NCBI RefSeq assembly: GCF_024508235.1
Contig: NZ_CP101943.1
Location: 124,001 to 188,000, forward strand
Length of the DNA: 64,000 nt
Source of the DNA: Halococcus qingdaonensis
Lineage (GTDB): Archaea > Halobacteriota > Halobacteria > Halobacteriales > Halococcaceae
Reading direction: 5' to 3'
Position numbers and translations under genes: made by a program. Each line of letters starts with the position of its first letter. Positions within the stretch are counted from its first letter, which is position 1. The notes under the pieces were generated by a model that did not search any database, had not been told where the DNA came from, and worked only from the letters and a program-made list of their open reading frames with translations. Shown here in pieces: positions 1,802 to 40,156 of this stretch.

Positions 1802-2992
1802 TTAACTGATTTCATCACAGATTGACGAGAACGCGTCATAGGAGGGATATTCGTAGCAATCCGTGAAAAATTCCTCTTGTAACTCTGCGCGATCTTTTTC
1901 ATAGCGATCGATTCCATTAAGTGCGCTTTCCAGGTCAGCACAAAGTTCGTCTGTAGACTCAGAGACCGGACCAGGAACGTGTTCTTCGTAATCAAAATAT
2001 AATCCTCGTGTCGATTTATACTGTTCAAGATCTGGCGCATAGAAGAGAATGGGTTTGTCCTCAAAAGTAAAATCATAGAATATTGATGAATAGTCGGTAA
2101 TGAGGATGTCACAATATTGGAGAAACGGGTACAGGTCATCACCATTCTCTAGCAAAAATACCCGTTCGTATTGATCATAGGGGATATCCAATTCATCATG
2201 TGGGTGAGACGATACATACATGAAAGAATCTCTCTGTTTGAGAAGTCGATCAATTTTTTCGAAATTCGGCTTAATATTAGACAAAGAGAATCCATTTTCT
2301 TTGCCAAAGGCGTTACGCCACGTTGGTGTATAGAATATAATATCATGTTGCTCGGACATCGATGAAATCTTATCCAATTCTTGCGTACAAGTTCTGATAT
2401 TAAAATTTTTATCTTCTTGATAGAAAACATCAAGCCGTGGGTATGGTGCTATAATGAATTTAGAGCTATCTAGGTTTTTGGCTTTTCGGAATGTTTCTAG
2501 AGGCGTACCTATATTTGTGACGACAAAATTCGACGGGCCAACAAAAGAGTCCCAGAGATATCGCTTTAATCGTTTCATAACGCCGAGATTTGCTTCGCTT
2601 ACATCGGTACCCATCTTTTTTAGCGCATTTCCGTGATGGGTATCGATTACAGTTGCGCCACCAAGATTTTTTCCAAATTGGGGACCATGGGTTTCAATTG
2701 CAACCCCTGCTCTGAGAAGACGGAACCGGCCAAGTATAGAATCATGTTTGTAGGCAGAGAAACCACTTTCTCGGAGTTCTGAGACGACTCCTTCAGATGT
2801 CCCGATCCAGCTAGCTGATATCTCATCTCGTTCTTTGATGCAGTAGAGAAATAAATATTTTGAGTTCTCTGCGAATCGATCGCCTTCTCCAGCGATGAAC
2901 ACCCACTCTGATTCCCGTCTAGGGAACAAGTATGAAATGGCGAGAACAATAGCGAAGGAAGAAAACTTGAGGAACCGTTGAGCTACGGACAT
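1802..2992 (-). CDS. CDP-glycerol glycerophosphotransferase-family protein
   Basis: This 396-residue protein is of the TagB/TagF type (PF04464), which transfers glycerol-phosphate or a related polyol-phosphate from a CDP carrier to a membrane-linked acceptor. A hydrophobic N-terminal segment (about residues 8-23) may anchor it to the inner face of the membrane. Family landmarks are THHGN (118-122), YTPTWR (221-226), SSHPH (261-265) and TDYSSIFYDF (299-308), followed by KPILFYAPDLEQY. The gene is much more AT-rich than its neighbours, which suggests horizontal transfer. It sits alone between IS debris and an ISH3 element. In haloarchaea it would probably build a cell-surface glycan or teichoic-acid-like polymer; the actual substrate is unknown. 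Confidence 0.85.
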   Translation of the reverse strand: MSVAQRFLKFSSFAIVLAISYLFPRRESEWVFIAGEGDRFAENSKYLFLYCIKERDEISASWIGTSEGVVSELRESGFSAYKHDSILGRFRLLRAGVAIETHGPQFGKNLGGATVIDTHHGNALKKMGTDVSEANLGVMKRLKRYLWDSFVGPSNFVVTNIGTPLETFRKAKNLDSSKFIIAPYPRLDVFYQEDKNFNIRTCTQELDKISSMSEQHDIIFYTPTWRNAFGKENGFSLSNIKPNFEKIDRLLKQRDSFMYVSSHPHDELDIPYDQYERVFLLENGDDLYPFLQYCDILITDYSSIFYDFTFEDKPILFYAPDLEQYKSTRGLYFDYEEHVPGPVSESTDELCADLESALNGIDRYEKDRAELQEEFFTDCYEYPSYDAFSSICDEIS

Positions 2993-3104
2993 ATATAGGA
3001 ATATTGTTCGCCAAATATAAACATGGGGAAAAAGAGTCTACAGTCGGTACTTCCCGTCCGTGGCTGCCGCAAGCTGAATGTCAGTACCTCGCAAAGCCGG
3101 TTAG

Positions 3105-3458
3105 TTGAAACGTCTACTTGCTGGAGATGTGCATGATCCCGAGCAAGCAGACGGCGAAATCCACGAAGACCAGCTCCTTAATTTCCTCGTTAACACCCTT
3201 ACCGGTGCGTTCTCGCTGAACCTCGGCGAGAATGCCGAAATCGATCCCGATGATATCTTCGAGGTCCTCGTCGGCGCGTGCGCCGACGGGACCTCTATCT
3301 CCGAACTCTGCAAGCATAGCAAAGACGCTCCCTCCAGCACTGACGTCCTCTATCACCTCCGCACGAAGTTCGATTTCGATGCCGTCGCTTCCGTCGGTAA
3401 TCTTCTGCTCCAACGCGATATCCTCGATCTTCTCCCCGAGCAGGTGGAGGTCGTCTAA
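3105..3458 (+). pseudogene. ISH3-family transposase, N-terminal fragment
   Basis: The reading frame contains QADGEIHEDQLLNFLVN and later YHLRTKFDFDAV...DLLPEQVEVV, typical of the first third of ISH3-family transposases before the first catalytic Asp. Translation could start at TTG 3105 or GTG 3129. The frame ends at TAA immediately after the TA dinucleotide where an IS630 element has entered (3456-3457). The matching C-terminal piece is at 6531-6837. It is non-functional. Confidence 0.85.
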
Positions 3459-4522
3459 TGACTAAGACAATTTTTGAAAGTCAAAGAACTTCTCACACCA
3501 GCTTTTTGCGTAGCTGACTCGGTGCGTTATTTGCTCGAACACATCCTGTACGAGATCCTTGAATTCGCTCTCATTTTCGACGATGATTGGGCACATCGTC
3601 CACTTGAGTTGGTCCCAGACTTTCTCGATCGGGTTGAGATGTGGTGATCCAGACGGGAGGAAGATGAAATCGATTCCGAGCTGATGGGCGCGCTTACGCG
3701 TGTATTCACAGATATGCGAACCGTGCTTGTCCAAGACGAGCAGAATCCGCTTGCCGGGATTCTGCTCGCGGATCGTCTCCAATACCTCGCAGATCCGTTC
3801 TTTCGTCTCGTCTTCGGTGAATTTTACGAGACTCTCACCGTTGAGCGCGTAGAACCCCACCGCAGAATCGTCGGTCTTGACCAACGGTCGTTCGATGTGT
3901 GGATCGTCGACGTACCAGACACGCCGCGAATTATCGTATGGTTGGGGCTGTGAGGCATCAAAGAATCCGACGACGGTACCGCCGTCGGTGCAAACATCGT
4001 CGTCGACAATCCATCCTTCTCCATCTTCGCCCGCGCGTTTGTTGTGTGGCTGCTCATCCTCGTCGAGCGCGTCACCGACGCGCTCTTCGAGCATCTCTTC
4101 TGGATTTTCCGGGCGGTGTGGACGCTTTGGCCGCGGCTTCGCATACGATAGACCGAGTTTCCGCAGGAACGTGCCGAGGTAGTTCGGGTGGTATTCGACG
4201 TCGAATTCTTCGGCGAGAAGGTGCTGAATTTCCTGCGATTTCCAAGGCTGACCGTCACGCAGTAATTCGATCAGCTCGTCCTGTTCATCCTCATCGAGCT
4301 TCGGGGGCCTGCCGCCCCCGAAGTTCGGCATGAGTTCATCGAGTCCGCCGTTGTTCCAAGCTTCTGCCCACCGGCCTCCTGTCGCTGGTGATCGTCCTAC
4401 TCGATCAGCAGCCTCTGGAACGGTATCGCCTCGGTAGAGATTCTTGACGAAACCGATCCGCCGAAGACGGTGATCGTCTTCGGCTTCCCGAAGTAACTCG
4501 TCGATCTGCCCCTCTGGAAGAT

Positions 4523-5974
4523 CGGTAGTTCCCGACTGTGATTACCGTAATCCTTACTGTAAGCTCAATCGGTAGTCGTTTCAGAATGAGTCTGGCTCGA
4601 TGAGATGTGCACGAAGAACTCACCGAACCAGACGAGCAGATTTCAGCCGACAAGATGGAAACGCTGTCGCTTGATCTCCTCTCAGCACTACCTATGGAAG
4701 GCGTCGAGGGTTCGCCCCTCGACGCCGACGTGATCTGGAAAACTGTCGAGCGAGCCGCTACCGACGCCACTTCCGTTCATCACGTCGTCGAAAACACTGA
4801 CGAAACACCTGATGACGACGAAACTATCATGGATTGGCTCCGGACCATCGAACCGGACGCTCTCGAAGAGGTCGTTAACGACCTTCTTGCTGAACACGCC
4901 ACGACGATCCTCGACCCTGACCGGTCGAGGATCGTCATCATCGATTTCGTCGACAACCCCTATCACGGGACGTGTCTCACCGATCCAATCGAGATCTGTT
5001 CGATGAAGCCCCGCGACGGTACCACCAAGTGCCACCGATACTGTACCGCGTTCGTCCTCGACAGCAAGAAGCCACTCACACTCGCTATAACGCCCGTCAC
5101 GAGCGACGAGGACGCGGCCGACGCTGTCGGGCGCGTCTTCGACCGCGTCGACCAGTTACCCTTCGGGGTCGATGCTATTCTCGCGGATCGCGGTTACTAC
5201 CAAGAGCGCGTCATTCGACGCGCTCGTGCCACTGCTCCTGTCGTTCTCCCAGTCGTGAAGAAAGGCGAACGACTGCGCGATCAACTTGACACGCACGCCT
5301 CCTACTGGACCGAATACGCGATGTACAAGGACAAAGACCGAGAGCTTGAGTTTCCGCACGCGGTCTGTGTCTCCTACCAGAACGGCGACCGCGGCAAGAA
5401 CGGCGAAGTCGTCCGTGGCTACGTGGCGTGCGATCTCACCGATCGCACGCCCAAACAGGTCGAAACGCTCTATCGGAAGCGCTCAGCCATCGAAACCAGC
5501 TACCGCACCTACCGCGAAGCGAGAGCGATAACGGCCACACCAGACCCACTGATTCGCTTCGTATTCGTGGCTGTGAGCTTCCTCTTGCGGAATCTCTGGT
5601 TGATCGTGCGCTGGACGGTCGTCGCCCGCCCACGGCAGGGCGGGCGCGACCTTCCGACTGAGTTCACGTTCGAATTGGTGTGTGGCTGGATCAGAGATCA
5701 CCTAAGCGCTGATCTAGGCTGGCAGTACACGTGGGAGACCAACGGTGTCGGTCTGCCTCCGGGTTACGGCCCGACCGCGGCCTGACCGAAGTCAGGCCGC
5801 TGGGCCGCCTATCCTGAGCAACAGCTCTCGGCTGAATGGGGCGATCGAACCGCCGTAAAGGACGCTCAGGTGCGCAAGTGTCTGCTTCAGTCTCACCAGA
5901 CTGCTCTCGTTGTCAGATCACCCGTCAAACCAGATGCGAACGCGAAATCACGAAAACACAGTCGGGAACTACCG
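4523..5974 (+). mobile_element. Complete ISH3-family-like insertion sequence
   Basis: This 1452-bp element is bounded by 18-base perfect inverted repeats (CGGTAGTTCCCGACTGTG). The flanks are an exact 5-base direct repeat, AAGAT, at 4518-4522 and 5975-5979. It encodes one transposase (4607-5785). It lies inside the 5' end of the IS630 transposase gene and is therefore the youngest layer of this nest. It looks intact and potentially mobile. Confidence 0.92.
4607..5785 (+). CDS. ISH3-family-like transposase
   Basis: This 392-residue DDE transposase appears intact. The likely catalytic residues lie in VIIDFVDNPYHG (first Asp), ILADRGYY (second Asp) and the YRKRSAIETSYRTYRE segment (Glu), the Y-R-E arrangement of ISH3/IS4-like enzymes. 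The C-terminal part (FVFVAVSFLLRNLW, then an ARPRQGGRDLP stretch) corresponds to the ISH3 C-terminus at 6531-6837, though the two proteins are quite divergent. The start is GTG 4607. An ATG two bases upstream is in another frame. Confidence 0.88.
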   Translation: MHEELTEPDEQISADKMETLSLDLLSALPMEGVEGSPLDADVIWKTVERAATDATSVHHVVENTDETPDDDETIMDWLRTIEPDALEEVVNDLLAEHATTILDPDRSRIVIIDFVDNPYHGTCLTDPIEICSMKPRDGTTKCHRYCTAFVLDSKKPLTLAITPVTSDEDAADAVGRVFDRVDQLPFGVDAILADRGYYQERVIRRARATAPVVLPVVKKGERLRDQLDTHASYWTEYAMYKDKDRELEFPHAVCVSYQNGDRGKNGEVVRGYVACDLTDRTPKQVETLYRKRSAIETSYRTYREARAITATPDPLIRFVFVAVSFLLRNLWLIVRWTVVARPRQGGRDLPTEFTFELVCGWIRDHLSADLGWQYTWETNGVGLPPGYGPTAA

Positions 5975-38540: not shown

Positions 38541-38583
38541 TATCTGAACTACCCTGACGATAGGGGATTGATCGTGGGCACAG

Positions 38584-38807
38584 AAAGAGAGTACATTTCG
38601 TGTGCTCTCCACCACAAGTACTGCAGGTCCGTATCACGTTGGTCGACACAAAGAGAGTACATTTCGTGTGCTATCGAGGCCAACCAACACGGAACGTGGC
38701 GGATATCAGAAAACCATTAGAGAGTACATTTTGTGTGCTATTGAGCTCAATCGGCAAGGTGGAAAGCGGAGACTAGGAAGACGAAAAGAGAGTACATTTC
38801 GTGTGCT
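38584..38807 (+). repeat. Four 23-base direct repeats, 66-68 base period
   Basis: Copies lie at 38584-38606, 38650-38672, 38717-38739 and 38785-38807. All contain GAGAGTACATTTCGTGTGCT, with one C to T change in the third. Starts are 66, 67 and 68 bases apart. The last copy overlaps the stop codon of orc1/cdc6. The sequences between are unrelated to one another. Confidence 0.9.
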
Positions 38808-39993
38808 ATCCTTCTATCTCCTCGCGCGTCTCGATGACTAGTTCTGGATCAAGGTCGAGTTGATACTCGAAGTACTGCCCACCACTCCGTCCTTGATTTC
38901 GCTTGTCGCGTTGCAGAAATCCCAACATGTGGAGATCCGCGAGATGATCCTGTATACTCTTCAGCGATGTCAGTGGCGTCGTTGCCCAGGATTCTGCAAC
39001 CTGTTCATACGTCTCTCGAATCTCTTTGGAACGCGCCGGAGTATCATCACGTTTCTCGAGGCGTGCAATCGTCTCGAGGACATACTGCGAATGATCCGTC
39101 TGGTCTCGTATTCGATTGGCGAGTCGTCCACGTTGGACGAGTTCACGAGCAGTCTCGATATGGTCATCAATCACACAGCTATCGCCTGCTCGTTCGGCAA
39201 CCTCTCCCCCGACACGAAGCAAATCGATCGCCTGGCGAGCATTCCCCATGTCTTGTGCCGAAATCGCTGATGCCATTCCAACCGCGGATTGCTCCCATCC
39301 GTCTTCGACAAACGCTTGCTCTGCACGGTCTTTGAGGATTGCTTTGAGTTCTGTTGCATCATAAGGACTGAACGAGATCTCGTTTTCCATTAGTGTGTCT
39401 TTCACCTTTGGGGAGAGGGTTTTTCGGAACGTGTAGTTGTTACTGATTCCAATGATGCCGACTCTTGCATCGCTCAGATGCCCGTTTGACCGAGCCCGTG
39501 GTAGTTCATACAACAACGTGTCGACCTCATCAAGGTGGTCGATCTCATCAAAAACGAACAGGTGGGTTCCACCGACACGATCGAGTTGTTGATAGAGCTC
39601 TTCGAAGGCATCGCCCGTTCCGAGCCCCCGCTTTGGAAACCGACTTGCATCCTGTGGAAGAAGCTTGTTCACAAGCACGCGGATAATCATAAAGAGTGTC
39701 TTGCTGTTGCAGTTCACGTTGTGGATATGGAGATCATCTGCTTCATCTCGTGACTGCACCTCATCGTTGAGGGCATCCATCATGTACGTCGTCACAGCTG
39801 TCTTTCCGAGCCCAGCCTTTCCATACAACATGACATTCTCGGGATCGCGTCCAAAGAGAACGTCCTGCAGTGCGTAGCGATACTCCTCGATTTCTTGCTC
39901 TCGCTTCAAAATCGATTCTGGTTGATAGCTTTCGTTCAGGACTTCCTTGTTCGAGAAAATAGTATCCGTAATATCAGCAAATGGTCCTGGCAT
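38806..39993 (-). CDS. orc1/cdc6: Orc1/Cdc6-family replication initiator
   Basis: This 395-residue AAA+ protein has Walker A GKAGLGKTA (58-66), Walker B HLFVFDEIDHL (144-154) and sensor 1 around GIIGISNNYTF. The lid domain has DMGNARQAIDLLRVGGEVAE (sensor 2 Arg). A C-terminal winged helix (about 300-395) would bind origin repeats. It marks origins and helps load the MCM helicase. The gene is slightly AT-richer than its neighbours. A TTTTAAGT box lies 32 bases before the ATG, so the message is probably leaderless. Haloarchaea have several Orc proteins, each tied to its own origin; the five flanking repeats fit that pattern. Confidence 0.92.
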   Translation of the reverse strand: MPGPFADITDTIFSNKEVLNESYQPESILKREQEIEEYRYALQDVLFGRDPENVMLYGKAGLGKTAVTTYMMDALNDEVQSRDEADDLHIHNVNCNSKTLFMIIRVLVNKLLPQDASRFPKRGLGTGDAFEELYQQLDRVGGTHLFVFDEIDHLDEVDTLLYELPRARSNGHLSDARVGIIGISNNYTFRKTLSPKVKDTLMENEISFSPYDATELKAILKDRAEQAFVEDGWEQSAVGMASAISAQDMGNARQAIDLLRVGGEVAERAGDSCVIDDHIETARELVQRGRLANRIRDQTDHSQYVLETIARLEKRDDTPARSKEIRETYEQVAESWATTPLTSLKSIQDHLADLHMLGFLQRDKRNQGRSGGQYFEYQLDLDPELVIETREEIEG

Positions 39994-40020
39994 GCTCTGT
40001 CACCTACTACATACACTAGT

Positions 40021-40028
40021 ACTTAAAA
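40021..40028 (-). promoter_or_regulatory. TATA box of orc1/cdc6
   Basis: TTTTAAGT on the minus strand lies 28-35 bases upstream of the ATG at 39993. Confidence 0.55.
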
Positions 40029-40119
40029 CCTTACTTCGTGAGATTCGTCTGTTTCCCCGTTAATCGAGGACATCGCCGACAACCGCTGTCTCTGCCTGCA
40101 AGGGCCGGTTGAAAACGAG

Positions 40120-40142
40120 AGCACACGAAATGTACTCTCTCT
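40120..40142 (-). repeat. Inverted fifth copy of the orc-linked repeat
   Basis: Read on the minus strand this is AGAGAGAGTACATTTCGTGT followed by GCT. It matches the array at 38584-38807 in 22 of 23 positions but faces it. It lies between the orc1/cdc6 promoter and the aldo/keto reductase stop. Confidence 0.88.
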
Positions 40143-40156
40143 CTCCGAGCCCGTGC

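Follow-up and report, generated by a model that had tools for sequence, protein, structure and literature searches.

An orc1/cdc6 gene lies between inward-facing repeats

In the window (the whole 64-kb stretch of DNA analysed here), the minus-strand gene at 38806-39993 encodes a 395-aa protein whose AAA+ domain, lid and C-terminal winged helix are all intact. Profile searches matched Cdc6_C (E 2e-20) and Cdc6_lid (E 4e-19), Walker A reads GKAGLGKT and Walker B reads DEID, and the nearest solved structures, 2v1u and 2qby, align with the protein almost end to end. With AAA+ Walker A and B motifs and a C-terminal winged helix, the product is an archaeal Orc1/Cdc6 initiator (hereafter Orc). The orc gene is 49% AT compared to 41% for the window, and Halococcus morrhuae has a counterpart locus that is 99% identical. 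The window genome groups with this species, which places the organism in Halococcus. The features of the locus are as follows.

38587-38609, plus strand: downstream box 1, the outermost, antisense to orc
38653-38675, plus strand: downstream box 2, antisense to orc
38720-38742, plus strand: downstream box 3, with one mismatch, antisense to orc
38788-38810, plus strand: downstream box 4, over the orc stop codon, antisense to orc
38806-39993, minus strand: Orc1/Cdc6 initiator gene, 395 aa, assigned from profile domains and structural relatives
40005-40064, no strand: candidate unwinding region, the most AT-rich 60 bp of the module, overlapping the promoter
40020-40028, minus strand: TATA-like element TTTTAAGTA of the orc promoter
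40035-40042, minus strand: promoter mini-box 2, CTCACGAA, 9 bp from mini-box 1
40044-40051, minus strand: promoter mini-box 1, CAGACGAA, a half box opposed to the upstream box
40117-40139, minus strand: upstream box, sense to orc, at a similar distance in most homologues

The core of the box, GTACATTTCGTGTGCT, is found at 38591, 38657, 38724 (one mismatch) and 38792 on the plus strand and at 40120-40135 on the minus strand, so that orc sits between two inward-facing arrays, with the upstream box in the sense orientation and the four downstream boxes antisense. The initial annotation had reported four repeats with a period of 66-68 bases at the 3′ end of orc, the last on the stop codon, plus an upstream copy in inverted orientation, and all of them were located, the downstream boxes being spaced by 66, 67 and 68 bp. 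It had also described a 23-base repeat; the boxes are present, but the conserved element is longer, about 28 bp, and reads ARAGAGAGAGTA[C/G][A/G]TTTCGTGTG[C/T]TYTC. When up to three mismatches were allowed, the core gave five matches in the 64-kb window compared to 0.38 expected, and no shuffled sequence contained five. In the whole 2.70-Mb genome, there were no additional copies of the core with up to one mismatch and one additional copy with two mismatches. Inverted ORB repeats directly adjoin orc, as in archaeal ORB-type origins.

The box resembles an ORB with an altered string

The oriC1 of the same genome contains GTTCCACCTGAAACGAAGGGGTGGGGG and, at a distance of 243 bp, its inverse, with the strings pointing outward. 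Written in the reading direction of oriC1, the box at the orc locus is GCACACGAAATGTACTCTCTCTC, which consists of a CAC-GAAA core, a short linker and an outer string. The order and polarity of these parts (CGAAA core, outward string) are the same as in the oriC1 ORBs, but the other strand has an (AG)n string in place of a run of G, and the G-string required by the published haloarchaeal ORB definition (PMC3528665) is absent from the box. Five relatives with 57-60% identity (L085, L086, L088, L094 and L111) have a C/G string, for example CACCCCTCATTTCGTCTGTT, at the position of (AG)n next to the same core. Since the core and polarity match oriC1 and the C/G string of the relatives occupies the same position, the box is best read as an ORB whose string has changed. 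The initial annotation had called the repeat unlike the known ORB; this holds for the string, while the polarity of an ORB is kept. In published predictions of haloarchaeal origins, a G-string was a condition for keeping an ORB (PMC3528665, PMC4595724), and no origin was assigned to 52 of 154 orc genes, about a third (PMC3528665). ORBs of an (AG)n class would escape prediction based on the G-string.

Residue 349 in the recognition helix and residue 373 in the wing of the winged helix vary with a base of the box. With the core TTTCGTGTG, residue 349 is D in 21/21 proteins and residue 373 is Q in 20/21, compared to 7/28 and 0/28, respectively, with the core TTTCGTCTG. As this co-variation involves only about three changes on the tree, we did not accept it as proof of recognition, and it is suggestive only.

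Orientation of the boxes is conserved among related loci

The boxes were compared among 70 homologous loci from the order, and 392 related genomes were scanned for the box. The layout is not peculiar to the window genome and recurs beside dozens of related genes: within 1 kb of the 70 homologous genes, there were 117 sense and 14 antisense boxes upstream and 98 antisense and 7 sense boxes downstream, with one intragenic box. For the clade sharing at least 66% identity with the window protein, the corresponding numbers were 83 and 5 upstream and 90 and 4 downstream. The upstream and downstream boxes share one logo, and in most homologues the proximal upstream box starts between -125 and -161 relative to the start codon. 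Having most boxes downstream, which the initial annotation had emphasized, proved to be a trait of this locus, since homologues carry 1-9 boxes upstream and 0-9 downstream. The even 66-68 bp spacing is likewise local; elsewhere it ranges from 42 to about 130 bp, phased near 10.5-10.75 bp by a statistic that ignores kinship. In addition, a motif-free repeat search of the flanks recovered the boxes, with locus scores mostly of 17-76 compared to 7-12 for shuffled sequences. The largest array found is in L091 (G111:C2:571017-576192; 55% identity, on a 598-kb contig), which has 4 upstream boxes and about 12 antisense downstream boxes at intervals of roughly 55-75 bp.

The proposed tie between the box and this type of Orc was borne out, as 97 of the 144 near-exact matches in the 392 genomes have a listed homologue no more than 1 kb away; a search with the reversed pattern gave 1 match. 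The search for the core away from orc genes that the initial annotation had suggested shows that the box mostly accompanies homologues, but a minority forms orphan arrays. Among the remaining near-exact boxes, some flank other orc genes or contig ends, and the orphan arrays adjoin toxin-antitoxin or transposase genes. One orphan array (L152, G363:C22:230500-236500, positions 2683-3993) has three sense boxes and one opposed box around genes for a TumE-like toxin and an HVO_A0114-type regulator, the same inward-facing layout with orc absent between the boxes. Two further arrays without a nearby orc lie beside a Fic/Doc-type gene (L150, G187:C1:430000-436000, positions 2761-2982) and beside a transposase-like gene (L151, G325:C3:50000-56000, positions 2717-2790), and both are probably remnants of integrated plasmids. 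The boxes at the present locus are very probably the binding sites of the Orc encoded between them.

The opposed box mostly occupies one of two places

An opposed (antisense) box was found in 67 of 69 loci, nearly always either just upstream of the promoter, as in a canonical origin, or beyond the gene. It was upstream-proximal only in 17 loci, downstream only in 46, at both places in 4 and at neither in 2, an either/or distribution with a Fisher p of 1.5e-10. A tree built from the AAA+ part shows 7 changes of one trait and 5 of the other; 3/3 independent informative switches agree with expectation, a number too small to reach significance. Such a distribution would follow from a need for an opposed half but not from simple titration, and it suggests that opposition of the boxes is required. 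The placement of the opposed box provides a direct test of whether downstream ORBs are part of an origin or a titration sink.

The orc promoter contains mini-boxes

In most genes of the clade, antisense half-boxes CANACGAA lie directly 5′ of the TATA element, at about -59 and -50 relative to the start codon. Both were present in 23/39 genes by a strict pattern, compared to a background of 0.09 per 85 bp. In more distant clades, among the loci printed, the mini-boxes resemble the box of their own locus, such as ACACTCGAA with TTTCGAGTG. Mini-boxes matched the box core of their own type at 7.45 of 9 positions compared to 6.40 ± 0.21 for permuted types, and none of 5000 permutations was as high, although related types are partly dependent. 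Since the mini-boxes track the sequence of their own box, one protein may bind both, which suggests that Orc is autoregulated through the promoter mini-boxes; the mini-boxes thus predict that Orc controls its own synthesis. In the limited literature covered, we found nothing after 2016 on autoregulation and the G-string.

The candidate unwinding region (40005-40064) is 63% AT over 60 bp, compared to a maximum of 62% in oriC1. It is short and overlaps the TATA element, and the module has no extended AT-rich region past the promoter.

Genomic surroundings

In a sister species (L112, G061:C132:5500-14500, positions 2890-4790), the same flanking genes are present and a TnpB gene replaces the orc module. 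This genome keeps half of the upstream box, GACGAAACGTACTCTCTCTCTC, as a scar, and because the half-box remains, the module was probably lost there. In the window genome, a low-GC stretch (51-56% GC) extends from about 115 kb through window positions 1-26000 (genome 124-150 kb) and ends at most 12 kb from the locus; the GC content is about 64% further left. The other Orc/Cdc6-like genes of the genome (G000:C1) are at 107 kb, just before the low-GC stretch, and at 2.49 Mb (L127 and L128). No ORB-like inverted repeats were among the repeats listed for these two genes, which leaves oriC1 and the present locus as the two candidate origins.

A candidate Orc-specific replicator

Our working interpretation, to which we give an even chance, is that the module is an Orc-specific replicator apart from oriC1 with the initiator gene inside its own origin. 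The boxes, their orientation, their association with this Orc clade, the polarity and core of an ORB and the locus-specific mini-boxes are read directly from the DNA; Orc binding, MCM loading, the site of unwinding, autoregulation and any activity in the organism we infer. In the proposed mechanism, the Orc encoded between the boxes would read both facing ORB arrays and, bound at both sides, would load MCM on the DNA in between, with opening most likely at the AT-rich promoter stretch (40005-40064). By occupying the pair of mini-boxes 5′ of the TATA element, Orc would either repress transcription of its own gene or set its timing. A more specific form of this proposal, which we advance tentatively, is a gene-spanning origin in which the opposed arrays, about 1.3 kb apart around the initiator gene, must act together and the opposed half has been relocated several times in the family. 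If this is true, the initiator's own transcription unit would be the DNA where the helicase is loaded, and the opposed half of the origin would have alternated between a site upstream of the promoter and one past the gene, both of them fixed.

Several results count against a replicator. The cumulative GC skew over 0-320 kb has neither a minimum nor a switch at the locus (162-164 kb), unlike at oriC1, where sampled stretches on either side have skew of opposite sign. Since the locus lacks a switch and the method is weak here, GC skew was rejected as proof of an origin. There is a single full upstream box at the locus, the AT-rich region does not extend past the promoter, the G-string is absent here while the oriC1 of Haloarcula hispanica needs its G-string (PMC3936714), and the downstream ORB cluster of H. 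hispanica is dispensable and negative (PMC3936714). The Haloferax mediterranei plasmid pHME132, considered as functional proof because it would carry this Orc alone, was also rejected, as it has a second Orc.

The precedent of H. hispanica supports an alternative in which only the upstream region, with its box opposed by the two mini-boxes, is the origin and the array downstream serves as a titration sink for Orc: oriC2D has 11 ORBs downstream of cdc6E and no origin activity (PMC3936714). This reading, a doubtful but serious contender, also draws on the antisense promoter mini-boxes, which oppose the upstream box, and on L101 and L103, which carry an upstream antisense box plus a downstream array. 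However, titration needs no orientation, yet the downstream boxes are 90 antisense and 4 sense, and a downstream array that mainly replaces a missing upstream opposed box is not among its predictions. Orientation and the either/or pattern favour an origin half, and precedent favours a sink. The position of the mini-boxes immediately 5′ of the TATA element and the absence of a skew switch could instead mean that the boxes are mainly operators for orc transcription at a dormant or decayed origin, and dormant origins are known in haloarchaea (PMC4595724). We consider this unlikely, since arrays that span several hundred bp, with as many as nine boxes on either side, exceed the needs of an operator and the polarity is conserved at both sides.

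A small mobile element that carries orc and has the inward-facing boxes as its terminal repeats is very improbable. The inverted repeats do surround a gene of 49% AT in a window of 41% AT, the flanks vary among relatives, and the sister genome lacks the module between the same flanks. Yet the module contains no transposase, there are several boxes per side at variable distances and in variable numbers, relatives with a one-sided layout are known, and the half box beside TnpB in the sister genome points to loss and not to an empty target; we rejected this candidate on these grounds. A viral origin was also rejected, as the viral Orc homologues reach at most 26% identity.

Comparison with known origins

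The replicator proposed here can be compared to several known systems. The initial annotation had pointed to boxes flanking their own orc gene, and this layout is confirmed, but boxes on both sides have already been published (PMC3528665, PMC3936714). The closest likeness is the H. hispanica oriC2-cdc6E/oriC2D region (PMC3936714), which shares ORBs upstream and downstream of a cdc6 gene and in which oriC2 relies on its own Cdc6, like the Orc-specific module proposed here. There, oriC2D lacks origin activity and is a negative element of 11 ORBs that titrates Cdc6E, added to a complete upstream origin, whereas nearly all downstream boxes of the present family are antisense, and they mostly stand in for the upstream opposed ORB. 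This comparison covers the layout and the published effect of oriC2D. The E. coli dnaA/oriC/datA system (named in PMC3936714) would be alike if autoregulation and titration hold, but its proteins and sites are unrelated to the present module.

The oriC1 of the same genome (Orc1-type, 2.443 Mb) shares inverted ORBs with outward strings, the GAAA core and possibly an AT-rich stretch between the ORBs, which in the present module is short and overlaps the TATA element. It differs in its G-string and in the upstream position of both its ORBs, which are separated by 243 bp. Haloarchaeal origins next to orc/cdc6 genes (PMC3528665) share the linkage of Orc and ORB families; since their definition demands a G-string, a class like the present boxes would be filtered out. 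ORBs in both intergenic regions around orc/cdc6 are occasional exceptions among those origins (PMC3528665), whereas the both-sided, inward-facing layout is the rule in the present family. Taken together, the both-sided, inward-facing layout with (AG)n strings looks like an undescribed form of a known archaeal origin.
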